Assembly (NCBI GenBank): GCA_030038075.1
Contig: JASHPO010000017.1
Location: forward strand, 1-43,209
Reading direction: 5' to 3'
Length of the DNA stretch: 43,209 bases
DNA from: Nitrososphaerales archaeon
Lineage (GTDB): Archaea; Thermoproteota; Nitrososphaeria; Nitrososphaerales; CADDZS01
Position 1 is the first letter of the stretch; each line of letters begins with the position of its first letter. The notes under the pieces are model-generated. The model was not told where the DNA came from and did not search any database. It saw nothing but the letters and a program-made list of their open reading frames with translations. Of the stretch, positions 11,938 to 29,218 are shown one piece after another. Both the position numbers and the translations under genes were made by a program.

Positions 11938-12336
11938 ATGAGCAAGCCCGTTGATCTTGGGAGCACGAAGGAGGGCTCTTATATTTTGATCGACGGCGAG
12001 CCCTGCAGAATCGTGGAATACGACAAGAGCAAACCAGGAAAGCATGGAGCCGCCAAAGCACGGGTCGTGGGTATCGGAGTTTTTGACGGCGTAAAGCGAA
12101 GTCTGGTATTGCCGGTGTCCACCAATGTCGAGGTTCCGCTGATCGAGAAGAAATCCGGGCAGGTAATATCCCAGTCATCGAACAAGGTTCAGATTATGGA
12201 TCTTGAAACATTCGAAACTATCGACGTTCCCACACCTACGGAGGAAGATGTTGCGTCAAAATTAGCCAACGGGGCCGAAGTCGAGTACTGGCAGGCGATG
12301 GGAAAGACGAAAATTGTCAGAGTAAAGAACGCTTAG
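11938..12336 (+). CDS. eif5a: Translation initiation factor 5A (aIF5A)
   Basis: KPGKHGAAKARVVGIGVFDG with hypusination-loop lysine. Confidence 0.97.
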   Translation: MSKPVDLGSTKEGSYILIDGEPCRIVEYDKSKPGKHGAAKARVVGIGVFDGVKRSLVLPVSTNVEVPLIEKKSGQVISQSSNKVQIMDLETFETIDVPTPTEEDVASKLANGAEVEYWQAMGKTKIVRVKNA

Positions 12337-13466
12337 AAGTGGAAGAACGAGCCTTTCTTCTTATCGTCTTCAAGCTGTTTGAATTCCTTCAGAAGCTCCT
12401 TCTGTTTATCAGAAAGTTTCTGGGGAATAGCTACGTTAACCGTGACAAGCTCGTTGCCTCTGTTAGCACTGCCCAGAGTCGGCATTCCCTTACCTCTTAA
12501 CTTCAATACCGTGCCCGTCTGAGTCCCAGGAGGCACCGTTACGTCAGTAGTTTTGCCGTCAATTGTGGGAACCTGTATCGTTGTTCCGAGAGCCGCGCTG
12601 GCGAAATCAATTGATACCTGGGTGTGCAGATCGTTCTCCTCTCTCTGGAACGTCTTGTGCGGAAGAACGTGACACACTACATAGAGGTCGCCCGCGGGCG
12701 TGCCCATCTCTCCGGCATCTCCCTCAGCCCTAAGTCGCAGAGAAGACTCGTTGTCAATCCCCGGTGGAATCTTTACAGAAATCTTTCTCGTCTTCTGGAT
12801 GGTGCCGTTGCCCCTGCACTCGCGGCAGGGATTGTCCAGTATCTCGCCTTTTCCCTTGCAGACGCGACAAGTTTCAATTCTCACGAACTGCGCGAAGCCA
12901 GAGGAATTTATCCTCTGAACCTGCCCCCTGCCTCCGCATTCCGTGCATCTCCGCGGTTCGCTGCCGGGTTTTGCACCTGTACCTTTGCAAACAGGACATC
13001 TCTCGGTTCTCGGGATTTCAATCTCGGTCGTCAAGCCGGAAGCCACCTGCTCAAGCGTAATGTCGAGGTCGTACCTCAGATCAGCGCCGCGCCTCGCGCC
13101 TCGACCAGAGCCGGTCATGTTGCCGAAGAACATGTCGAAGATGCTCCCGCCGCCGAAACTGCCGAACCCGAAACCGAGGTCGCGCAGTATCTCGTCAAAG
13201 TTTGCTGATCTGAAAATGTCCTCCGAGCTGTACCGTCCCTGGATTCCTTCATGTCCGAATCTATCGTACTGGGCGCGCTTCGCATCGTCGGACAAGACTG
13301 CATACGCTTCTGAGATTTCTTTGAACCTATCTTCCGCGCCGGGGGCCTTGTTCCGGTCTGGGTGGTACTGAAGTGCCAGCTTTCTGTAGGCTGCCTTTAT
13401 CTGATCTTTAGTAGCGTCCTTTGGAACTGCAAGGACTTCGTAATAGTCTCGTTTCTCTACAGACAT
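12333..13466 (-). CDS. dnaJ: Chaperone DnaJ
   Basis: J domain with YHPDRN; four CxxCxGxG zinc repeats (CPVCKGTG, CTECGGRG, CRVCKGKG, CRECRGNG). Confidence 0.97.
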   Translation of the reverse strand: MSVEKRDYYEVLAVPKDATKDQIKAAYRKLALQYHPDRNKAPGAEDRFKEISEAYAVLSDDAKRAQYDRFGHEGIQGRYSSEDIFRSANFDEILRDLGFGFGSFGGGSIFDMFFGNMTGSGRGARRGADLRYDLDITLEQVASGLTTEIEIPRTERCPVCKGTGAKPGSEPRRCTECGGRGQVQRINSSGFAQFVRIETCRVCKGKGEILDNPCRECRGNGTIQKTRKISVKIPPGIDNESSLRLRAEGDAGEMGTPAGDLYVVCHVLPHKTFQREENDLHTQVSIDFASAALGTTIQVPTIDGKTTDVTVPPGTQTGTVLKLRGKGMPTLGSANRGNELVTVNVAIPQKLSDKQKELLKEFKQLEDDKKKGSFFHF

Positions 13467-13472
13467 TTACCC

Positions 13473-15320
13473 TCAGCTTTTCTGTTGATCCTGATCCACT
13501 TTGTACTCTGCGTCTACGACCTTTTGGCCGGAAGAGTCGGTCTGGGTCGCTTGTCCACTGCTCGTCGTCTGCGCCGCCTGCTGATATGCGACCGTCCCAA
13601 TGTCCTTCAGTACGCTCGTTAGAGATTCAGTCTTTAGTTTGATGGCATCGATGTCATTGGCGGCGACCGCATCCTTCAGTTCTTTGGATGCATTGTCTAG
13701 TTTCGTCAGAAGTTCCGCAGGGATCTTATCCTTGAGATCTGATTTCGTTTTTTCCACAGTGTAGAGAAGACTGTCTGCTTGGTTCTTGATCTCCGCTTCT
13801 TCCTTCTTCTTCTTGTCGGCCTCAGCGAACTGCTCTGCTTCCTTCACCATTCTCTCCTTTTCCTTATCGGACAGTTTGGTCGAAGCTGTGATCGAAATGC
13901 CCGTCTGCTTTCCCGTCGCCAGATCTTTTGCTGCGACGTTCAAAAGACCGTTGGCGTCAATGTCGAAAGTCACCTCAATCTGCGGGACTCCCCTAGGAGC
14001 TGGCGGAATGCCGACGAGGTTAAAGTTCCCCAGCGACACGTTATCCGACGCCATGGCTCTCTCTCCCTGTAGAATATGAATCGTCACTGAAGTCTGGAAA
14101 TCGGCGGCGGTTGTGAATATCTGGCTCTTCTTAGTTGGAATCGTTGTGTTTCTGTCAATTATTTTCGTAAATATTGAACCCATCGTCTCGACTCCCAGAG
14201 AGAGAGGCGTCACATCGAGTAGCAGAATATCCGTGACTTCTCCGGACAGGACCGCACCCTGTATAGCAGCACCCATTGCAACGCATTCCATCGGGTCTAC
14301 ACCTCTTTCAGCAGGTCTCCCCATGATCTTCTCAACAAAGTTTCGGACTATCGGCATCCTTGTCGGGCCGCCGACAAGAATTATCTTGTCAACCTGGTTT
14401 GGCTCTAGCTTCGCATCCCCCAGCGCCTGCGTCATCGGGTGACGGCATTTTTCGATGATCGGCGAAACAAGTTCCTCAAGTTTCGCCCTTGTCAGAGTCA
14501 TCGCAAGGTTCTTTGGGCCAGAGGAATCAGATGCGATGAACGGCAAGTTAATGTCAGTTGAAATTGTCGTCGAGAGTTCTATCTTCGCCTTCTCAGCGGC
14601 TTCCCTAACTCTCTGGACTGCTACCTTGTCGTTTCTCAGGTCTATTCCGCTCTGAGTCTTGAACTGCGAGGTGACGTAGTCAACGAGAATATTGTCCATG
14701 TCGGTTCCACCGAGCTGAGTGTCCCCGCTGGTTGATTTTACTTCGAAGACTCCGCCTCCGAACTCCATTATCGTGACATCAAGCGTGCCGCCTCCGAGAT
14801 CGAAGACCATGATCTTCTGATCTTTACCGGCCTTGTCGAGACCGTAAGCCAGAGACGCCGCAGTTGGCTCGTTGATTATCCTGACAACTTCCAGACCAGC
14901 AATCGCGCCTGCGTCCTTGGTCGCCTGCCTCTGGTTGTCGTTGAAGTACGCAGGAACCGTGATAACGGCCTTTGTAACCTGCTCGCCGAGAAACGCTTCC
15001 GCATCAGCCCTGATCTTTTGGAGAATGAAAGCTGAAATCTGTTGGGGCGTAAACTCCTTGCCGTAAACCTTGACCTTGTAGTCGGTGCCCATCTTGCGCT
15101 TTATGGCCATGATCGTTCCCTCCGGGTTCGATACCGCCTGTCTTCTTGCGGGCTCGCCAACAAGGAGAGCGCCTTCCTTAGTGAAGGCCACGTACGATGG
15201 GAAGGCCTTTCCTCCAACGCTAGTTCCTTCCGCGCTGGGGACGATCGTGGGACGTCCTCCCATCATCACTGCCGCAGCTGAGTTACTCGTTCCGAGGTCT
15301 ATTCCGATTATTTTTGGCAT
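13473..15320 (-). CDS. dnaK: Chaperone DnaK (Hsp70)
   Basis: [44 protein letters not shown]; 615 aa. Confidence 0.98.
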
Positions 15321-15345
15321 TTATTTTCTACCTAGTAACCACAAA

Positions 15346-15954
15346 TTATTTTTCAGGAGAGTTATTGACAGGCACTTCGCTTGGGGCGGTCTGGGGTTTT
15401 CTCCGGGCAACCTCAATCAAAGCTGGCTTTATGACCTTTCCGTCGATAGTATAGCCGTAGGCAATGACCGACAGAACTGTTCCTTCAGGTTCGTCCTCTG
15501 TCTCCTTCGACGCCACAGCTTCATGCAACTTCGGATCAAATCTCGTCCCGACATCTACCTTGATTTGCTTCACGCCCTCTGTTTTTAGATCGTTCTCTAT
15601 GCGAGAACCGAGGAGCTTCAAACCATCCACAATGGGTGATTTGTTTGATTCAGCCGACATCAGAGCTCGGTCAAGATCCTCTTTGATCGAAATTATTTCC
15701 AATATCCAGTTGAGCTTTACCTGAATTTTCGAGTCTGCGACCATTCGGTCCGCCTGGCGCTGCATGTTGATCAAATCCGCCTGGAGGTATCTCAGACGGG
15801 TCATCTGGTCGGTATTCTTCTTGCGCTCGCTCTCAAGGTCAGTTTCCAACCGCTCCACTTGCGATAACAACGACCAGAGATCCCGGTGAAGGGGAACTTC
15901 CTCTTTCGGCTTCAAGTTTTCATTCTCGGATTCCAAAATGCGGCAAAACCTCAC
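15346..15954 (-). CDS. grpE: Nucleotide exchange factor GrpE
   Basis: Coiled-coil N-terminus; KVDVGTRFDPKLHEAVASKETEDEPEGTVLSVIAYGYTIDGKVIKPALIEVAR. Confidence 0.95.
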   Translation of the reverse strand: MRFCRILESENENLKPKEEVPLHRDLWSLLSQVERLETDLESERKKNTDQMTRLRYLQADLINMQRQADRMVADSKIQVKLNWILEIISIKEDLDRALMSAESNKSPIVDGLKLLGSRIENDLKTEGVKQIKVDVGTRFDPKLHEAVASKETEDEPEGTVLSVIAYGYTIDGKVIKPALIEVARRKPQTAPSEVPVNNSPEK

Positions 15955-27332: not shown

Positions 27333-28124
27333 ATGCCGGGAGAAGCTACAAAACCGTCTGGTTTTCTTGCGCGGTCCCAGACTCCGAGCGAATGGAAGGC
27401 GGTTACTGCCTCCATACAAACTCTAGTCGAAGAGGCGACATTTGACGTCACCCCTGACGGCATTACATTCCGAGCGATGGATCCATCGCATGTCGCGCTT
27501 GTAGACCTTTTCTGGCCGAGCGAAGATTTCCAGAAATTCACTTGCGAAAAATCCGACAGGTTCACCGTGCGAATGGAGGATTTTGCAAAATTGATTAGGA
27601 GAGCAGAAAGCAAGGATTCGATCGAAATTTCAAGGGAGGGAACAGAGTCATTGAACATCAAACTGAGCAACGGTTACAAGAGAGATTTCGAGCTTCACCT
27701 CATCGAGTCAGCTCAGAGTAACACTCCGCTTCCAAAGCTCAACTTTGACGCGAACTTTGTGACGACGGAGCCAGCGTTCGACCGCGTGCTGAACGACGTT
27801 TCGGCGATCTCAAATCACATTAGCATAGAGACCGACAAGACCAAAGTCCTTTTTTCAGGCAAGGGTGATACTGGAAAAGCATCGGTCGTCCTAGAGAAAT
27901 CGGAGACCGGAAAGGGCGACCTGACGGATCTCAGCGCACAAAAGGAAGCCAAATCAACTTACAGCATCGAATATCTGCTAAAGATAACTAAGGCTGCCGG
28001 CTCGGCTTCTGACACTATAAAGTTCGAATATTCCAGCAAGATGCCGCTACGAATGGAATTCAAGCTGGGCGAAAACAGCAAGGGAAAAATCCAGTTTTAC
28101 TTAGCGCCGCGAGTCCAAGAATAA
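27333..28124 (+). CDS. pcn: DNA polymerase sliding clamp PCNA
   Basis: TFDVTPDGITFRAMDPSHVALVDLFWP; MPLRMEFKLGENSKGKIQFYLAPRVQE. Confidence 0.95.
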   Translation: MPGEATKPSGFLARSQTPSEWKAVTASIQTLVEEATFDVTPDGITFRAMDPSHVALVDLFWPSEDFQKFTCEKSDRFTVRMEDFAKLIRRAESKDSIEISREGTESLNIKLSNGYKRDFELHLIESAQSNTPLPKLNFDANFVTTEPAFDRVLNDVSAISNHISIETDKTKVLFSGKGDTGKASVVLEKSETGKGDLTDLSAQKEAKSTYSIEYLLKITKAAGSASDTIKFEYSSKMPLRMEFKLGENSKGKIQFYLAPRVQE

Positions 28125-28146
28125 AAAACTAGTAGCGGGGGGTGGA

Positions 28147-28180
28147 CTGTCATCACCGCAGAAGATTACTCTGCGATCAA
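28147..28180 (-). other. Non-canonical tRNA intron (34 nt) in the T-loop, about position 59/60
   Basis: Minus-strand TTGATCGCAGAGTAATCTTCTGCGGTGATGACAG between TTCAAA and TCCACC; BHB-like fold: central helix TTCA/TGAC (3 of 4 pairs), bulges AA^T and AG^T, inner helix TGATCGCAGA/TCTGCGGTGA with one mismatch. Confidence 0.88.
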
Positions 28181-28202
28181 TTTGAACCACCGCTCTGCGG
28201 GT

Positions 28203-28227
28203 TTCTCATGGAGCTTACAGGAAACAT
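28203..28227 (-). other. Canonical tRNA intron (25 nt) at 37/38
   Basis: Minus-strand ATGTTTCCTGTAAGCTCCATGAGAA between CTCATA and ACCCGC; 4-bp central BHB helix CTCA/TGAG is perfect, with 3-nt bulges TA^A and AA^A. Confidence 0.9.
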
Positions 28228-28297
28228 TATGAGCCCGCCGGGATAACCTGGCTTCCCCACCCCGCTAGTCAGTTTCCCTCGATTTTTCAACGGATGC

Positions 28298-28306
28298 TTA
28301 TTAAAG
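28298..28306 (-). promoter_or_regulatory. Putative TATA box for the initiator tRNA gene
   Basis: Plus ttattaaag (minus ctttaataa), centre about 36 nt from the tRNA 5' end. Confidence 0.45.
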
Positions 28307-28351: not shown

Positions 28352-29218
28352 TTGAATGAAGTCAAAAACCACCCGGTAGGAATCCACGTCTCAATATCCG
28401 GAAAATTTGATCTAGCAGTTAACCGGGCAATCGAAGTTGGCTGCGTTGGGGCATTCCAAATTTTCACATGCAGTCCGAGACAGTGGAACGCTTCTAAGCT
28501 AAAGGAAGAAGAGATAGCCGCATTCAGAAGCAAGGTAGCGCAGAACGGTTTTCAAACGTTTGCACATATGCCATATCTTCCAAACCTCTCGACCTCGGAC
28601 GAGAAATTCTATTCAAAGTCAGTCGAAGTCTTGAAGCGTGAGGTGGCAAGATGTGAGGCATTGGGGGTCCCGAATCTCGTACTGCATTTCGGCAGCCACA
28701 TGGGCACATCAGTTGAATCCGGTCAGAGGCGGATCATTCAAGCCTGCAACGAAGCTCTACACGAATCATCGCGATCCGGCGTTAGGCTCTTGCTCGAAAA
28801 CTCTGCCAGCGTGAAAAACAGCACCGGCTCTCAGTTTCCCATGATAAAGCAGGTGATTGACGATGTGCTCGACACAAGCAGGATTGGCGTTTGCTTTGAT
28901 ACGTGCCACGCATTTGCAGCGGGCTACGATCTCCACACTGAGAATGCGGTGGAGAGGACCTTCATGGATTTCGAATGCGAGGTTGGGCTGGAGAAATTGT
29001 ATCTGATCCACTTGAACGACTCAAAGGGAGCGCTCGGCGACGGGCTCGATCGTCACGAGCACATTGGAAAGGGCAAGATAGGCTCAGAAGGAATGAGAGC
29101 TATTCTCTCTCTGAAAGAACTCTACCACATCCCAGTCGTCCTAGAGACTCCCGTTGATGAGGAAGGCGAGGACAGGAAGGATATTCAGACAGTGAAAAAA
29201 CTGATCCTGAAAAACTAG
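28352..29218 (+). CDS. nfo: Endonuclease IV (AP endonuclease)
   Basis: GIHVSISG...GAFQIFTCSPRQW; LVLHFGSHMGT; GVCFDTCHAFAAGYDL; LIHLNDSKGALGDGLDRHEHIGKGKIG; TTG start. Confidence 0.97.
   Translation: MNEVKNHPVGIHVSISGKFDLAVNRAIEVGCVGAFQIFTCSPRQWNASKLKEEEIAAFRSKVAQNGFQTFAHMPYLPNLSTSDEKFYSKSVEVLKREVARCEALGVPNLVLHFGSHMGTSVESGQRRIIQACNEALHESSRSGVRLLLENSASVKNSTGSQFPMIKQVIDDVLDTSRIGVCFDTCHAFAAGYDLHTENAVERTFMDFECEVGLEKLYLIHLNDSKGALGDGLDRHEHIGKGKIGSEGMRAILSLKELYHIPVVLETPVDEEGEDRKDIQTVKKLILKN

Follow-up and report, generated by a model that had tools for sequence, protein, structure and literature searches.

A probably single-copy initiator tRNA-Met gene with two predicted bulge-helix-bulge introns, one of them in the T loop, in a Nitrososphaerales archaeon

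The window (the whole stretch of DNA that was analysed, 43,209 nucleotides of a Nitrososphaerales archaeon) contains an initiator tRNA-Met(CAU) gene on the minus strand (28266..28133), consisting of three exons and two inserts. The gene and its surroundings have the following features:

27333-28124, plus strand: PCNA gene, convergent with the tRNA gene and 8 nt off
28123..28128, minus strand: six-T run just downstream of the tRNA, a possible terminator judged from the sequence
28133..28146, minus strand: exon 3 (tRNA positions 60-73), without encoded CCA
28147..28180, minus strand: predicted T-loop intron of 34 nt at position 59/60; relaxed bulge-helix-bulge (BHB) motif with 3/4 core pairs and a long inner hairpin
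28181..28202, minus strand: exon 2 (tRNA positions 38-59)
28203..28227, minus strand: predicted canonical intron of 25 nt at position 37/38; perfect 4-bp BHB core CUCA/UGAG
28228..28266, minus strand: exon 1 (tRNA positions 1-37, including 17a and 20a), the same in eight family genomes
28299..28306, minus strand: CTTTAATA, probably a TATA-type promoter element of the archaeal kind, lying 33-40 nt upstream; from comparison by eye
28352-29218, plus strand: deoxyribonuclease IV gene, divergent from the tRNA gene

Elsewhere in the window (12333-15954, minus strand), DnaJ, DnaK, and a probable GrpE are clustered, as judged by their translations.

Joining the exons gives a complete 75-nt initiator tRNA, AGCGGGGTGGGGAAGCCAGGTTATCCCGGCGGGCTCATAACCCGCAGAGCGGTGGTTCAAATCCACCCCCCGCTA. 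All of its stems are paired (acceptor 7/7, D 4/4, anticodon 5/5, and T 5/5). Archaeal initiator tRNA-Met is marked by an A1-U72 first pair, the CAU anticodon, and three consecutive G-C pairs (GGG/CCC) beside the anticodon loop; all of these are present in the spliced molecule. An earlier first-pass annotation, made from the sequence alone, had proposed two minus-strand inserts, of 25 nt at 37/38 and of 34 nt in the T loop, whose removal leaves a perfectly paired 75-nt tRNA. Their coordinates, lengths, and sequences proved exact, and every stem is indeed fully paired. A permuted tRNA gene was also considered and rejected; the exon order is normal, and the 3' part does not lie upstream of the 5' part.

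The gene is hidden from simple tRNA searches. Over the window, ARAGORN reported no tRNA, and Rfam at gathering thresholds gave no match. The Rfam tRNA model matched 23 other places in the whole assembly, and the initiator locus was not among them. ARAGORN called nothing in the unspliced initiator sequence. With both inserts edited out, it called tRNA-Met(cat); with the T-loop insert alone removed and the intron option set, it called tRNA-Met with a 25-nt intron in the anticodon loop. The first-pass annotation had expected a default scan to miss the gene, and both ARAGORN and Rfam overlooked it. Simple scans can thus lose the only tRNA that starts translation, with consequences for how uncultured archaea are annotated and for how complete their genomes are judged to be.

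The splice-site geometry was analysed for both inserts. Intron 1 (37/38) has a core of four pairs out of four (CTCA/TGAG) and 3-nt bulges (UA^A and AA^A); it has the 4-bp central helix and the two 3-nt bulges at the splice sites that define a canonical BHB. Intron 2 (59/60) also has 3-nt bulges (AA^U and AG^U), and its core TTCA/TGAC has three pairs out of four. In this core U54 faces C, so the motif is relaxed. Its inner helix has 10 pairs with one G.G mismatch. These results agree with the earlier description of a perfect first core and of a relaxed second motif, whose 10-bp inner helix carries one mismatch. The second insert has the features of a noncanonical intron, namely a BHB or relaxed BHB at the junctions and a canonical tRNA restored by its removal. 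When the inserts were shuffled, core and inner helix were jointly as good in 1.7e-4 of shuffles for intron 2 and in 1.6e-3 for intron 1. In the predicted minimum-energy fold of the precursor, the core of the T-loop BHB is opened into an internal loop; the free fold of the whole precursor (-54.8 kcal/mol) is slightly better than the cloverleaf-constrained fold (-54.0 kcal/mol), with a gap below 1 kcal/mol. In G002, a congener, the T-loop intron has four core pairs out of four, and its minimum-energy structure is a textbook BHB (z -5.25); the T-loop intron of G001 also has 4/4 core pairs, one being G-U. The register of the inner helix is common to only three congeners (G000, G001, and G002), with one clear two-sided change, from A-U in G000 and G001 to G-C in G002.

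Comparison within the family separates exons from inserts. In all eight family genomes where the gene was found, the 75 exon positions are identical (75/75), and both introns occupy the same positions. The introns vary in sequence and also in length (25-73 nt at 37/38 and 32-66 nt at 59/60). Removal of the T-loop insert gives an invariant TTCAAAT T loop across the family. At the level of sequence, this conservation in relatives is the decisive evidence against a chance origin of the arrangement.

The initiator gene was then surveyed across the order. Among 61 genomes searched (the own genome and 60 relatives), it was found in 52. Introns were called by a script based on the T stem, and at least 3/4 BHB core pairs were required at 59/60. 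The script found a 59/60 intron in 19 of the 52 genomes, belonging to eight families (f1, f2, f4, f6, f8, f10, f16, and f17). It found none in 21, and 12 were left unparsed. The standard splice geometry with at least 3/4 core pairs is present in all 19 parsed cases. Among relatives, the 59/60 insert ranges from 14 to 66 nt, and some lineages have no insert. The 12 unparsed genes carry a T-stem insert near 52/53, in place of or besides the 59/60 intron. T-stem introns at this second T-arm site occur in L026, L028, L030, L033, L038, L051-L053, L058, L034, L037, and L039; in L034, L037, and L039 (families f3 and f13), a 59/60 intron was also read by eye. Constant exons, variable and sometimes absent inserts, and a preserved splice geometry together give the look of functional introns. 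The T-loop intron read by the first-pass annotation is supported, although its emphasis on rarity was somewhat too strong, because many genomes of this order have an initiator tRNA with a T-arm intron.

Family f4 (L015, L022, L023, L035, and L040) has three initiator introns, at 37/38, in the variable region, and at 59/60. The middle intron of L023, read by eye, fits position 45/46 with the core CCGC/GCGG. Since a BHB in the variable region would draw on the 3' side of the anticodon stem, splicing may have to follow a set order in this family.

The assembly also encodes two predicted splicing-endonuclease subunits of a fitting type. The EndA catalytic-domain family has exactly two matches (L059 and L060). 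L059 is the predicted catalytic EndA; it has retained the active-site residues Tyr, His, and Lys (YERGPGLDHAPYLV...VRK), and it matches the Sulfolobus EndA 2cv8 (4e-40) and the Aeropyrum 3p1z (2e-38). The other EndA paralog, L060, lacks the catalytic His (YERGDYGTKAAKYIV). The gene content has one paralog with Tyr-His-Lys and one without, the composition that defines an (alpha-beta)2 splicing endonuclease. Judged by these sequences, one catalytic and one non-catalytic subunit are what would be expected of the heterotetrameric type of enzyme, which tolerates relaxed BHB motifs. Heteromeric EndA has been tied to noncanonical introns and assigned to Thaumarchaeota and Crenarchaeota (review PMC4090602).

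Introns were seen in most of the tRNA genes read in the assembly (L061-L080), and several lie outside the anticodon loop, such as those in L068 (Pro) and L072 (Gly). When the own genome was scanned by pattern for more T-loop introns, there were 15 matches versus 11 in the reversed control, and only two were tRNA-like on reading. A T-loop insert also appears to be present in tRNA-Glu(UUC) (L083, G000:C138:5240-5620) and in a probable tRNA-Trp(CCA) (L085, G000:C69:24180-24500), which seemingly has several introns.

Both inserts are thus supported as BHB introns by the sequence comparisons: the geometry, the exon identity in eight genomes, the free change of the introns, and the fitting endonuclease genes all speak for the two-intron reading first proposed. 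Very probably (about 0.95), the locus is the single, functional initiator tRNA-Met gene of this archaeon, whose two BHB introns would be cut by EndA and whose exons would be ligated. Transcription would be driven by the TATA-type promoter, at a distance of about 35 nt. Both introns would form BHB motifs in separate arms, so each could be cut independently. The heterotetrameric (alpha-beta)2 EndA would cleave each motif in its two 3-nt bulges, in each case behind the second nucleotide of the bulge, and the three exons would be joined by a tRNA ligase. The 3' end would be trimmed, and CCA would presumably be added afterwards.

It is very improbable that this locus is a silent or degenerate initiator copy and that the genome has an intact one in another place. 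An intact second initiator had been named beforehand as an observation that would speak against this gene; none was found in the own assembly, which is 85.9% complete with about 5% contamination, so that a second gene might be missing from the assembled part. However, the family relatives have one initiator locus each, the exon bases are identical in eight genomes while the introns diverge, and CTTTAATA or a near-identical element is conserved upstream of the gene in other family members (by eye). It is just as improbable that the 37/38 insert is the sole intron and that the mature tRNA keeps the T-loop insert in a lengthened T arm. The mismatch in the second BHB core of this species would fit such retention, but the insert varies in length among relatives and is wholly absent in some lineages, its removal restores the invariant T loop, and the splice geometry is kept in every parsed case. 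The permuted-gene, pseudogene, and retained-insert readings were rejected on exon order, on exon conservation, and on insert variability with kept geometry, respectively. Least probable of all is a mobile-element relic or target site, or a self-splicing intron, in place of a BHB intron in the T loop: integration often takes place at tRNA genes, and a protective role of introns against it has been proposed (PMC3218864), but the insert has BHB geometry, no Rfam intron family matched in the window, and 34 nt is far too short for a ribozyme.

The two-intron arrangement is not new in kind, since 59/60 is an already listed archaeal intron site and the Thermofilum pendens initiator is joined at 59/60. 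In T. pendens the tRNA-iMet(CAU) gene is permuted, with a BHB junction at 59/60 and, in addition, an intron at 37/38 (Chan et al. 2011, PMC3218864). Both are single-copy initiators with a 59/60 junction through a BHB and a canonical 37/38 intron; however, in T. pendens the 3' part lies upstream and CCA is encoded, whereas the present gene has the normal order, a cis intron, and no encoded CCA (PMC3218864). Noncanonical archaeal tRNA introns are known, as had been remarked at the outset. Position 59/60 is on a published list of archaeal intron positions, and a noncanonical intron together with a canonical one in a single tRNA has been described (PMC4090602). Those introns share the site and the pairing with a canonical intron, but they are best documented in Crenarchaeota, chiefly Thermoproteales, whereas the present case is an initiator tRNA in a thaumarchaeal-type lineage. 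According to the accessible part of a second report, 107 noncanonical tRNA introns were found in Thaumarchaeota by tRNAscan-SE 2.0 with a dedicated BHB model, and up to three introns per archaeal tRNA were reported (PMC8450103). These are the same kind of noncanonical BHB intron, although that part of the main text names neither the initiator tRNA nor 59/60. A search of open main texts found no description of a cis intron at 59/60 in the initiator tRNA of any member of this order.

Other families of the order also have 59/60 introns, and some have T-stem 52/53 introns, but the lengths, sequences, and accompanying introns differ; some of their initiator genes have three introns (37/38, about 45/46, and 59/60), and some have none. 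What appears to be mildly new on the sequences compared is how regularly, across this order, the only initiator tRNA has its T arm interrupted, in some genes as one of three introns. The pattern extends multi-intron tRNA genes, best known in the thermophilic Thermoproteales, to another order, where many families have such a gene for the initiator tRNA. That the T-arm intron of the only initiator tRNA (59/60 or 52/53) is repeatedly used and kept by selection, instead of coming and going neutrally, seems unlikely at present. If it were true, the intron might, for example, shield the 3' half of the tRNA from integrases or act as a maturation checkpoint for translation initiation.
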